In this document: in pieces, positions 30,891 to 34,481 of the stretch
How the letters are laid out: each line of letters opens with the position of its first letter
Position numbering within the stretch: the stretch's first letter is position 1
Notes under the pieces: model-generated
Database searches by the model: none
Told to the model about the DNA's origin: nothing
Seen by the model: only the letters and a program-made list of their open reading frames with translations
Position numbers and translations under genes: made by a program
NCBI RefSeq assembly: GCF_900101745.1
Contig: NZ_FNAD01000009.1
Coordinates: 62,001 to 126,000 of the forward strand
From: Glycomyces harbinensis
GTDB taxonomy: Bacteria; Actinomycetota; Actinomycetes; Mycobacteriales; Micromonosporaceae
Reading direction: 5' to 3'
DNA: 64,000 bases

Positions 30891-31838
30891 CTACGGACGC
30901 CCGTAGCCGTCGATCGATCCGCTGTAGTCCATGTCGACGATCTTCACGACCGTGCTCGAGTTCGGGGCGTGGATGATCTCCCCGCCGCCGATGTAGATCC
31001 CGACGTGGGACAGGTTGTTGTAGAAGACGAGGTCGCCCTCCTGGAGCTCGTCGCGCGAGATGCGCGCCGTCTCGTCCCACTGCATCGCCGCGTTGTGCGA
31101 GAGCGAGACGCCCACCGCGCCCCACGCGCCCTGGGTCAGGCCCGAGCAGTCCCATGAGTCCGGTCCGGCGTCGCCGTAGCCGTAGGGGTCGCCGAGCTGG
31201 GCGTACGCGAACTCCACCACGCCGGAGGACCCAGAGTAGTTGCTGTCGCTGTAGTCGGGCGGGTTCTCCTCGGCGTACGCGTCGTCGTACTCCTCTTCGA
31301 GGGCGGCGATCTCGGCCTCGATCTCCTCCTGCTGCTTCTCGATGTCCTCGAGGATCTCGTCGGCGCTCGCCTGGAGCGCCTCGAGCTCGGACTTGCGGGT
31401 CTGGAGCTCTTCGACCTGCGCGAGGTTGGCCGCCAGGGCCTCGTTCTCGGCCGAGGTCAGGTTCTCGAGGTACATGAGGCGGTCGGCGAAGTCGGCGGGG
31501 TCGCCGGACAGGACCGAGTTGACCATCGCGAAGTCGCCGCCGGTGTAGGCGCTCGCCGCGAACTCGCCGAGCGCTTCGGTGGCCTCGAGCGAGGCGGCCT
31601 CCAAGAGGGGCAGCTCCGCCTCGATGTCGGCGATGAGCTGGTTGGCGTCGTCGAGTTCTTCGCGCTTGGCGTTGAAGTCCTCGATGACCTTCTCGAGGTC
31701 TTCGTTGCGCTCGTCGATCTCCGCCTGGATCTCGTCGCTCGTCTGCGCGGACGCCTGCGAGGCGCTGAGCAGCGCCGCGGTGGCCGGTAGCAGTGCGACG
31801 GCTGCGATGGCAGCCGCGATTCGCCGGGTACGCACCAA
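30891..31838 (-). CDS. Secreted NlpC/P60 peptidoglycan hydrolase with coiled-coil domain (RipA-like)
   Basis: 315 residues from TTG 31838 or 314 from GTG 31835; GGAAGGAG suits both. Signal peptide about 1-32 (ASAQ). An Ala/Glu-rich coiled coil of ~160 residues (two helices, 33-195) precedes the NlpC/P60 domain (~205-315) with catalytic C231 in DCSG, His in NLSHVGIYIG and the third polar residue His in IIHAPNS. Enzymes of this type cut the D-iGlu-mDAP bond in peptidoglycan stems and act in cell separation; the coiled coil usually controls activity. Expression appears to be under a c-di-AMP riboswitch. Confidence 0.92.
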   Translation of the reverse strand: MVRTRRIAAAIAAVALLPATAALLSASQASAQTSDEIQAEIDERNEDLEKVIEDFNAKREELDDANQLIADIEAELPLLEAASLEATEALGEFAASAYTGGDFAMVNSVLSGDPADFADRLMYLENLTSAENEALAANLAQVEELQTRKSELEALQASADEILEDIEKQQEEIEAEIAALEEEYDDAYAEENPPDYSDSNYSGSSGVVEFAYAQLGDPYGYGDAGPDSWDCSGLTQGAWGAVGVSLSHNAAMQWDETARISRDELQEGDLVFYNNLSHVGIYIGGGEIIHAPNSSTVVKIVDMDYSGSIDGYGRP

Positions 31839-31859
31839 GGATGCGCTCCTTCCTCTGGC

Positions 31860-32050
31860 CGCCTACCGGGTTAGCTGTCGGGTTCGGGCGGAAGGAAGGG
31901 TCGCCCTACGCGCCCGAGGACGCGATTCACCCCGTCGGCCCTCGTGGCGCCGACTGCTGGTTCCCCGGTTCGGAAGGGCGGGGTGCCCGGCCGACTCGGC
32001 GGTGCCGCGCGGCGGATGCGGGGTGCACCCGAGTTTCCGACGCGACGGGT
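31860..32050 (-). ncRNA. ydaO-yuaA (c-di-AMP) riboswitch
   Basis: The minus-strand leader of the NlpC/P60 gene holds the conserved blocks of this class in order: CGCCGAGTCGG, CCGGGGAACC, GGGGTGAATC, TAGGGCGACCC, CCGAACCCGACAGCTAACC and GTAGGCG, ending 22 nt before the start codon. In actinobacteria this riboswitch turns off resuscitation factors and NlpC/P60 hydrolases when c-di-AMP is high. Confidence 0.93.
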
Positions 32051-32159: not shown

Positions 32160-32176
32160 ATACCCCTGCGGGGTAT
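32160..32176. promoter_or_regulatory. CsoR operator
   Basis: ATACCCC-TGC-GGGGTAT is a perfect palindrome of the known CsoR type, 25 bp before the csoR start. Copper-free CsoR would repress csoR-copZ here. Confidence 0.88.
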
Positions 32177-32201
32177 ACACTGACGACCGGAGGGAAGCGA
32201 C

Positions 32202-32549
32202 ATGGCGAGCGATCAGACCGACTGCGGGACGGCACACGGGCCCGGCGACGGCGGCGAGAACCAGCAGTACTGGTACCACGGCGACAAGGCCGCCCTCACC
32301 CGCCGCCTCAAGCGCATCGAGGGGCAGGTCCGCGGCATCCAGCGGATGGTCGAGGACGACGAGTACTGCATCGACATCCTCACCCAGATCTCGGCGTCCA
32401 CCAAGGGCCTCCAGGCCGTGGCGCTCAACCTCCTCGAGGGCCACCTGGCCCACTGCGTCGCCGAGGCCCAGACCTCCGGCGACGAGGCCGCCGCCAAAGC
32501 CAAGGTCAAAGAGGCCTCGGACGCGGTGGCCCGCCTGCTCAGAACCTGA
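32202..32549 (+). CDS. csoR: Copper-sensing repressor CsoR
   Basis: 115 residues. All-alpha DUF156 fold (LTRRLKRIEGQVRGIQRMVEDDEYCIDILTQISA). The copper ligands are C56, H81 and C85, with the same 25- and 4-residue spacing as C36/H61/C65 of the M. tuberculosis protein. It releases its operator on binding Cu(I). The next gene is a copper chaperone, 15 bp downstream. Confidence 0.95.
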   Translation: MASDQTDCGTAHGPGDGGENQQYWYHGDKAALTRRLKRIEGQVRGIQRMVEDDEYCIDILTQISASTKGLQAVALNLLEGHLAHCVAEAQTSGDEAAAKAKVKEASDAVARLLRT

Positions 32550-32564: not shown

Positions 32565-32774
32565 ATGGAAACCGTGTACGTCGTCAAAGGCATGACCTGC
32601 GGGCACTGCGCCGGCAGCGTCACCTCCGAACTCACCGCCCTCCCCGGCGTCGAGGGCGTCGACGTGGCCCTGGAGACCGGCAACGTCACCGTCAAGAGCG
32701 CGGCCGCCCTCGAACTCGACCAGGTCCGCGCCGCCGTCGACGAGGCCGGCTACGAACTGGTCGGCGTCGCGTAG
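32565..32774 (+). CDS. copZ: Copper chaperone CopZ (HMA domain)
   Basis: 69 residues, a single heavy-metal-associated ferredoxin-like domain with the metal motif MTCGHC (C12, C15). It shuttles Cu(I) to a P-type ATPase. The usual copA neighbour is absent here. The gene is followed by the remains of a terminator that a tnpB element has split. Confidence 0.93.
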   Translation: METVYVVKGMTCGHCAGSVTSELTALPGVEGVDVALETGNVTVKSAAALELDQVRAAVDEAGYELVGVA

Positions 32775-32781
32775 ACCCGCG

Positions 32782-32801
32782 GACCCTGGACACCCGTTCA
32801 C
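32782..32801 (+). terminator. Left half of copZ terminator, split by tnpB element
   Basis: GACCCTGGACACCCG (32782-32796) plus loop TTCAC. The complementary arm CGGGTGTTCAGGGTC lies at 34244-34258, on the other side of the element. Rejoined they form a 15-bp stem (one G-U) with a 5-nt loop. Confidence 0.8.
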
Positions 32802-32804
32802 CTG

Positions 32805-32891
32805 AGTGCCCGGGTTCCTCGCCAGCTTTAAGGCTGGGGAACAACCCGGGCACTTGCCTGCCCCGGTTCCGCGGAGCGGAACCGGGGCAGG
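32805..32891 (+). repeat. Left-end hairpins of the tnpB element
   Basis: First hairpin: 12-bp outer stem AGTGCCCGGGTT (32805-32816/32843-32854) with an inner CCAGC/GCTGG stem. Second: perfect 16-bp stem (32857-32872/32876-32891) with a 3-nt loop; its 3' arm contains the G-rich sequence just upstream of ATG 32896. Confidence 0.8.
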
Positions 32892-32895
32892 GGAA

Positions 32896-34074
32896 ATGTC
32901 GGACCCGTTGTCTATGGTGTTGGTCGTGCAGCTTCGTTACACCTACCGGGTCTACCCGACCGCGCCGCAACGCTCCGCGCTGGCGCGGACGTTTGGGTGC
33001 GTCCGGACGGTGTTCAACGACGCTGTCGCCGCGCGCCGGAAGGCGCACTCCGCGGGACTGCCGTTCCCATCCACGGCGGTGCTCGACAAGCAGCTGATAA
33101 CGGCGGCGAAACGCACTCCAGAGCGGGCCTGGCTGGCTGAGGTGTCGACGGTGCCGTTGCAACAAGCATTGCGGGACTGCCATGTGGCATACCGGAACTT
33201 CTTCGACTCGCTCAGGGGGAAGCGAGGCGGGGCACGGATCGGACCACCGCGTTTCAAACGCCGTTCGAATCGGCAGACCGCCCGATACACACGCAACGGA
33301 TTCGCCCTCAAACCGAACGGCCGGTTGTATGTGGCGAAGGTCGGTGAGCTCAAGGTCGTCTGGTCGCGTCAGTTGGTGGCCGAACCCAGCTCAGTGACGA
33401 TCGTTCGGACAACGACGGGAAAATACTTTGCTTCCTTTGTCGTCGGTGTCGATGACGGAGCCGAAAAGCTGGAGCCGTGCGCCGACCCAGAGGCCGAGAC
33501 CGGGATCGACCTTGGCCTGAAGAGCTTTGCCGTGCTGCGCGGCGGAAAGGTGATCGCGAACCCGCGATTCTTCGCTCGGATGGAACGTCAGCTGCGGAAG
33601 GCGCAGCGGGACCTGTCTCGCAAGCAGCAAGGCTCGGTGAATCGCGAGCAGGCCCGTATCAAGGTTGCGAAGATCCACGAGCGGGTCCGGAATACGCGCG
33701 AGGACTGGCTGAACAAACAGGTCAAGACACTGGTGAGCGAGAACCAAGCTCTCTATGTTGAAGACCTGAATGTGCAGGGCCTCTCACGCGGTCGGGCTGC
33801 GAAGTCAGTACGCGACGCCGCATGGGGCAGATTTTTGGGGAAACTCGAATCGAAAGCGGCCAGGACCGGACGCACCTTCGTCAAAGTCGACCGGTGCTTC
33901 CCCTCGACGCGGTTGTGCTCCATGTGCGGTGCGCTGACCGGCCCACAAGGGCCAGCGGACTTGAGAGTGCGGACCTGGGTCTGTGGGTGCGGGGCGGTCC
34001 ATGACCGGGATGCCAACGCGGAGGTCAACATCCGTCGCGAAGGACAGCGTCTCGTGGCTGTCGCCGTGAAATGA
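32896..34074 (+). CDS. tnpB: RNA-guided nuclease TnpB (IS605 OrfB family)
   Basis: 392 residues from ATG 32896 (386 from ATG 32914; typical homologues begin near VQLRYTYRVYPT). The N-terminal helix-turn-helix/wedge region is followed by a split RuvC domain with all catalytic acids: D205 in GIDLGLKSF, E289 in YVEDLNVQG and the Asp of HDRDANAEVNI (370-372). The zinc ribbon is complete (CSMC ... CGC). TnpB uses an omega RNA from the element's right end to cut DNA next to a TAM, which favours retention of the element. Codon use and GC are slightly lower than the neighbours, consistent with transfer. Intact and probably functional. Confidence 0.93.
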   Translation: MSDPLSMVLVVQLRYTYRVYPTAPQRSALARTFGCVRTVFNDAVAARRKAHSAGLPFPSTAVLDKQLITAAKRTPERAWLAEVSTVPLQQALRDCHVAYRNFFDSLRGKRGGARIGPPRFKRRSNRQTARYTRNGFALKPNGRLYVAKVGELKVVWSRQLVAEPSSVTIVRTTTGKYFASFVVGVDDGAEKLEPCADPEAETGIDLGLKSFAVLRGGKVIANPRFFARMERQLRKAQRDLSRKQQGSVNREQARIKVAKIHERVRNTREDWLNKQVKTLVSENQALYVEDLNVQGLSRGRAAKSVRDAAWGRFLGKLESKAARTGRTFVKVDRCFPSTRLCSMCGALTGPQGPADLRVRTWVCGCGAVHDRDANAEVNIRREGQRLVAVAVK

Positions 34075-34258
34075 GCAAGACCCGTCGCCCGGGGGCACTG
34101 GGAGACGCAAAATGCCTGTGGAGGGTTGGTAAGACCAGGAACACCTGGCGCGGCCTGTTGAAGCAGGAACCCGACCGTAGCCGGACCGCAACAGCGGCCC
34201 GCAAGCCGGGAACCTCCGCCGTTCACGGTGGAGAGGATGTCAACGGGTGTTCAGGGTC
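34000..34258 (+). ncRNA. Predicted omega RNA (reRNA) of TnpB with guide from right flank
   Basis: By analogy to ISDra2, the omega RNA overlaps the 3' end of tnpB, runs through the ~170-bp noncoding right end and ends beyond it. The scaffold would end at TCAA (34243) and the guide would begin CGGGTGTTCAGGGTC at 34244. The 5' limit is approximate. Confidence 0.6.
34244..34258 (+). terminator. Right half of copZ terminator
   Basis: CGGGTGTTCAGGGTC pairs with 32782-32796 at 14 of 15 positions plus one G-U. Now 1.45 kb from its partner. Confidence 0.75.
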
Positions 34259-34301
34259 TCGTCGTTGCGGGCCGCTGCGCCGATTGACGTAAAGTCGACG
34301 C

Positions 34302-34481
34302 ATGGCAGTCTCCGACGACGACCGTTCCGTCGAGCTCGACGAGGACTTCTCGGTGCTCCCGGACCAGACCTCCGACGACACCGACCAGGGCTGGGGCGAA
34401 GCGATCCCGCAGCGCCCCGCGCGCTCCAAGCTCACGGCCCGGGACCTCGACCTCCTGGCCGAGCGCCCCCCGCACTGGTAG
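34302..34481 (+). CDS. Small acidic actinobacterial protein ending in RPPHW
   Basis: 59 residues. Acidic N-terminal half (DDDRSVELDEDFSVLPDQTSDD), then QGWGEAIPQRP and a C-terminal DLDLLAERPPHW. Short proteins with a final (E)RPPHW are widespread in actinobacteria and have no assigned function. No transmembrane helix or catalytic motif. The ribosome site is weak. A 28-bp terminator hairpin follows. Confidence 0.65.
   Translation: MAVSDDDRSVELDEDFSVLPDQTSDDTDQGWGEAIPQRPARSKLTARDLDLLAERPPHW

Follow-up and report, generated by a model that had tools for sequence, protein, structure and literature searches.

A tnpB-only element of 1442 nt with IS605-type ends is inserted on the plus strand at 32802-34243 of the window, that is the whole 64,000-nt stretch of DNA that was analyzed, and it sits in the loop of a hairpin located 3′ of copZ. 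The hairpin re-forms when the element is removed, and it was found uninterrupted, free of the element and at the same position in 14 of 20 csoR-copZ loci of same-genus genomes (the genus being inferred to be Glycomyces), which bears out the central claim of the first-pass annotation of this DNA. The host genome is 6.17 Mb in size, and the order of genes around the insertion is csoR/ricR, copZ, the tnpB element, and then a 59-aa open reading frame. The first gene (32202-32549, plus strand) encodes a csoR/ricR-type copper-sensing repressor, recognized by PF02583, with NF052430 RicR remaining under its cut-off, and copZ (32565-32774, plus strand) encodes a copper chaperone with the HMA domain PF00403, with NF033795 CopZ also under cut-off. 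The 59-aa open reading frame downstream (34302-34481, plus strand) gave zero matches in a Pfam scan, and same-genus genomes have this open reading frame past the empty hairpin, too. Upstream of csoR, at 32161-32178, lies the sequence TACCCCTGCGGGGTATAC, which we take to resemble a CsoR operator. A c-di-AMP riboswitch (RF00379, 61.7 bits) was also detected on the minus strand of the window at 31844-32011, upstream of the open reading frame 30891-31838.

When 32802-34243 was deleted in silico, the 5′ arm GACCCTGGACACCCG (32782-32796, plus strand), the pentanucleotide TTCAC (32797-32801, plus strand) and the 3′ arm CGGGTGTTCAGGGTC (34244-34258) were joined into a 35-mer, which forms a 15-bp stem with TTCAC as its 5-nt loop. 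Folded as DNA, the joined 35-mer had a free energy of -15.9 kcal/mol (z -6.0), which was equalled by 0 of 200 shuffles, and the joined hairpin folded as RNA, 5 bases longer, reached -30.2 kcal/mol (z -6.6). Within 400 kb of the same genome, a hairpin score of at least 36 was reached at none of 519 TTCAC sites and at 78 of 39,800 arbitrary sites, with 39 of the latter scoring at least 40, which is the score of the window hairpin. The locus was also used as a query against 61 genomes, several of which, from the same genus, aligned to both flanks gap-free; among the first 13 aligned loci an uninterrupted hairpin was present in 11 (loop TTCAC in 10, TTCGC in one). In the set widened by seven genomes, 20 csoR-copZ loci were read onward from the copZ stop codon, and this look at relatives, which had been proposed in the first-pass annotation, revealed an uninterrupted hairpin with the loop TTCAC in 13 loci and with TTCGC in one. 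All but one of these 14 hairpin loci have a predicted loop of exactly 5 nt, the exception being L022, in which the fold closes to 4 nt. Four other loci (L026, L027, L285 and L286) have a different sequence at the hairpin position, with L027 and L285 carrying other hairpins there, followed by GTTTTC, while L287 and L289 were uninformative among the 20 loci, and L288 was left out. Across 11 loci of the genus, the 5′ arm shows both conservation and covariation. The alignment of 12 sequences had 95.6% of cells paired, versus at most 55.0% with slid partners; double-sided changes were seen at 3 pairs, a number reached by 15 of 500 shuffles, and the covariation score was reached by 0 of 500 shuffles. 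Because the hairpin is intact in sister loci and covaries, the comparison identifies it as a conserved structure at the terminator position, though one without a T-run.

The limits of the element could be set in a way that does not rely on the hairpin. Base 32802 and base 34244 are both C, so that the window sequence alone cannot separate an element at 32802-34243 from one at 32803-34244. The end was placed at 34243 because other copies stop there even though the query continued. Both full paralogs in the same genome stop at this base, with queries extending past the end, as do 15 among the matches listed from the 61 genomes, the others stopping within a few bases of it or earlier. The right end is present in 16 of 22 genomes of the genus. 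De-duplication left 70 copies, 57 of them with TnpB and one, L029, belonging to a different genus within the family. The aligned copies end in TCAA or CCAA, beyond which the flanks diverge, and the full TCAA end is missing in five listed copies (L068, L070, L106, L111 and L115). When 150 genomes of the family were searched with a structure model of the right end, 77 had matches, and 79 of 80 further copies end in TCAA or CCAA (L183 ends in TCGA), a proportion that arises partly by construction, since the model includes the end. A right-end query stopping at 34243 cannot yield matches beyond that base, and the independent evidence is provided by the overrunning queries and the alignment of copies. 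As judged from these, the limits are fixed independently of the hairpin. The exact limits given in the first-pass annotation, 32802-34243, are thus upheld by the right end common to other copies together with the empty sites at the 14 loci with a whole hairpin. The intact hairpin in sister species makes the ends certain and the natural guide predictable.

On the opposite side of the element, a left-end model built from 10 seeds was found in 30 of the 70 copies, and at E <= 0.001 it had no match in the other 40, some of which are cut or degraded. Two target classes precede the left end, one being TCAC or TCAT, and the other mostly CTAC or CTAT. The empty sites of the CTA class read CTAT or CTAC followed by TTGAAGCC, and they set the boundary of this class, with the GCTAC boundary given directly by near-identical copies in another genus. 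Many such copies at GCTAC were observed in three genomes of genus g56 (G145, G153 and G159), which suggests recent transposition there; in G145 and G159 they are ~1.78 kb long and, as this exceeds the length of the window element, they may carry tnpA. Among the 50 junctions analyzed below, 27 were chosen from 80 copies by the CTA[CT] pattern, so that a tally of targets over those 27 is circular. The second TCAC copy, L013, has relatives whose sequence continues uninterrupted across the junction, and TCAC itself is present in several of these. The base preceding TCAC or TCAT in 12 copies was T in 4, G in 4, A in 3, and C in 1. These comparisons support TCAC/TCAT as the likely core of the target and of the predicted TAM. 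The TAM originally proposed, TTCAC, agrees with this core and is over-specified in its fifth base, which varies across the 12 copies.

The element begins with two predicted hairpins that have equivalents in other copies, namely left-end hairpin 1 (32804-32855) and left-end hairpin 2 with a 16-bp stem (32857-32891), which are followed by tnpB (32926-34074) and by the right end (34112-34243), in which folding predicted a terminal hairpin with an 8-bp stem (34214-34233), all on the plus strand. The only recognized gene in the element is tnpB, which encodes a full-length protein of 382 aa with zinc-ribbon cysteines and with OrfB_IS605 and Cas12f1-like TNB domains (PF01385, PF07282 and PF12323, all above cut-off). 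The NF040570 guided_TnpB model was above cut-off, and the stricter NF038281 IS200_TnpB model was below it, with 306 of 425 bits. Residues D195, E279 and D362, which we take to be the catalytic residues of RuvC, are kept in the alignment to 9yyg, and the closest TnpB among named records is from Glycomyces. For ISDra2 TnpB, PMC8612924 describes D191 as a RuvC catalytic residue. The dN/dS values of tnpB versus five relatives ranged from 0.12 to 0.19, with dS near or above 1; the open reading frame of L037 was taken as 426 aa in this comparison, and 382 codons were aligned. In the right-end RNA of 48 aligned copies, 25 pairs were predicted, 19 of them with compensatory change, and the right end is predicted to be a covarying omega-RNA scaffold. 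Copies without tnpB were also observed. One of them, L075 (G005:C34), is a MITE-like form of 161 nt with its end at locus base 1579, which has the left-end hairpins and the omega-RNA right end, and L004 in the host genome (G000:C27:694-848) is a solitary right end or omega-RNA scaffold with neither tnpB nor a left-end match.

The IS1341 group of the IS200/IS605 family consists of elements that carry tnpB only, with no tnpA in the element, and the same composition is found here. The window element resembles this group in its TnpB with RuvC and zinc ribbon, in the subterminal hairpins at both ends, in the insertion 3′ of a short target with no duplication, as seen from the empty sites, and in a structured right end followed by a variable flank, while it differs in having landed in a hairpin loop. 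Hence, it is an ordinary tnpB-only, IS1341-like element with IS605-type ends, which is not classed as IS605 in the strict sense because the Y1 transposase gene is absent from it. Its protein belongs to the same family as ISDra2 TnpB from Deinococcus radiodurans, as the solved TnpB chains 8bf8, 8ex9 and 8exa, presumably those of ISDra2, match it. The targets of the two elements differ, with TCAC/TCAT in the window and TTGAT in ISDra2. Hairpins of IS1341 are mentioned in PMC9956272. Stem-loops or inverted repeats are targeted by IS1272 of S. aureus, according to PMC5678879, but this element has a DDE transposase and replaces the stem-loop, whereas the window hairpin was split with both arms retained. 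Bacterial-C group II introns are associated with terminators, according to PMC8919778; these introns insert just after the terminator, in contrast to the DNA element within the loop observed here.

The predicted guide of 16-20 nt (34244-34263, plus strand) adjoins the shared right end, and its part from 34244 to 34258 doubles as the 3′ arm of the old hairpin; the flank 3′ of TCAA reads CGGGTGTTCAGGGTCTCGTC. The TnpB guide of ISDra2 derives from the right flank, and its insertion target serves as the TAM, as shown in PMC8612924. The guide position directly after 34243, which the first-pass annotation had proposed, is supported by the shared right end and by this placement. The predicted guide matches the copZ terminator in its empty state, in sister species as well. 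Its flank has 1 to 4 mismatches per 20 bases to the empty site in 11 relatives, and among the 14 hairpin loci, 8 (L014, L017, L018, L020, L022, L282, L283 and L284) have TTCAC and the first 13 guide bases unaltered. By analogy to ISDra2, the window TnpB would use this guide and the TAM for cleavage. It is a highly speculative idea, to which we give little credence, that its position in a conserved terminator loop provides the element with a guide that is usable across many species and can also pair with the 3′ end of copZ mRNA, that TnpB could thereby home the element from one species to another at their copZ terminators, and that copper-induced read-through from copZ could mask the guide via pairing with the left arm.

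The insertion was also considered for its effect on copZ termination. A GC-rich hairpin soon after the stop codon, as in intrinsic terminators, was present before the insertion, and the sequence following it, TCGTCGTTG, has no T-run of the kind found in L-shaped terminators. The old hairpin can therefore be at most of the I-shaped type, in the sense given in PMC8919778, and it is called a terminator because of its position, its stem and its conservation. The two left-end hairpins begin 2 nt inside the element and have together a predicted energy of -76.8 kcal/mol, compared to -30.2 kcal/mol for the old hairpin. A scan for T-tailed terminators, which covered the occupied site and thus the left-end hairpins rather than the old hairpin, found none at the left-end hairpins. 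These two hairpins are a possible replacement terminator; transcription from copZ would meet them almost at once, so that termination is expected to be largely kept. A role of IS200/IS605 end hairpins as terminators is a speculation found in PMC7290912. Hence, the initial claim that copZ lost its terminator is correct in that the old hairpin was split, while the loss itself is doubtful in view of the two strong hairpins that came with the element.

The explanation that as a whole is very probable begins with a tnpB-only element having inserted directly 3′ of TCAC in the copZ hairpin loop, with no target duplication. This insertion was most likely catalyzed in trans, with a sister element providing the Y1 transposase and with single-stranded DNA as the substrate. 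A search for Y1 tnpA (PF01797) across the host genome gave no match at E <= 0.001, which makes present mobility doubtful. A Y1 match was obtained in 7 of 22 genomes of the genus, and in G009:C67 and G003:C32 a right end of this type is located ~1.2-1.3 kb away from a Y1 gene. With the full-length TnpB and the omega-RNA scaffold, the 3′ arm of the split hairpin would now serve as the guide. Guided in this way, TnpB would cleave a copZ terminator that lacks the element, be it after element loss, on a sister chromosome, or in a related species, and recombination after the cut would restore the element.

As to why the element is found at this site, insertion was probably random with respect to hairpins, and the copy was kept since an intergenic site does little harm. 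This is consistent with the observation that 48 of the 50 copies for which both ends were set lie outside strong hairpin loops (score of at least 30), and also with the fact that the element supplies its own hairpins. What speaks against it is that none of the 519 TTCAC sites mentioned above resembles the window site, so that chance alone makes this site a rare hit. Landing in a loop is thus real for the window copy but unusual among its relatives.

It is rather doubtful that the element is a remnant, with TnpB and the omega RNA no longer in use at the window site. The missing Y1 match in the genome and the empty site of the 14 loci with an intact hairpin are compatible with such a state, but the full-length open reading frame, both ends, and the RuvC residues have been retained. 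The dN/dS values well below 1 among relatives also argue against decay, although they support the family rather than the window copy.

The first-pass annotation had further suggested that terminator loops are favored by this family because a loop exposes the single-stranded target DNA. The junctions were tested in a set of 24 copies and then of 50; L015 from the smaller set was dropped from the larger one as it has no TCAY or CTAY motif at the left end, and L080 was kept despite its ill-defined left end. Strong loops hold 2 of the 50 copies, the window copy and L104, a number equalled by 0 of 400 permuted sets, and a score of at least 20 was reached in 6 of 50 (permutation p 0.02), with a mean score of 12.8 versus 11.9 (p 0.05), all with the window copy included. 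However, the window copy was selected for its hairpin, so that a fair count leaves it out and gives 1 of 49, with P about 0.09 at the background of ~0.2% of sites with comparable hairpins, and the mean without it is 12.2 versus 11.9. A search for arms that was independent of the ends used 60 of the 70 copies, the flanks of the remainder being too short, and ranked the window copy (p 0.009) and L104 (p 0.023) top, with the arms of both ending at the left end and the highest control score, 43, exceeding both. Among 80 further copies the best was L195 (p 0.029), the left end of which was not located. L104 (G021:C128) splits a perfect 13-bp stem with an 11-nt loop just after a gene whose product resembles a carbonic anhydrase. 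As a second proven loop insertion it was not confirmed, the hairpin not being seen in L231, the sole relative matching both flanks. A literature search in a limited open-access set found no precedent for IS605 elements in terminator loops, and the bias given for IS608 and ISDra2 in PMC5371812 is for the lagging-strand template. Hence, the junctions, the end-independent search, the permutations and the background fail to support loop preference as a rule, any such preference would be weak, and loops being the preferred site of the family is improbable.

These data provide a tested caution that one striking insertion into a hairpin loop does not prove a preference of the family for loops. On the other side, because the ends and the empty site are known from sister species, the TAM core and the guide of this TnpB follow as predictions, and a cleavage assay may be designed without guessing either of them.
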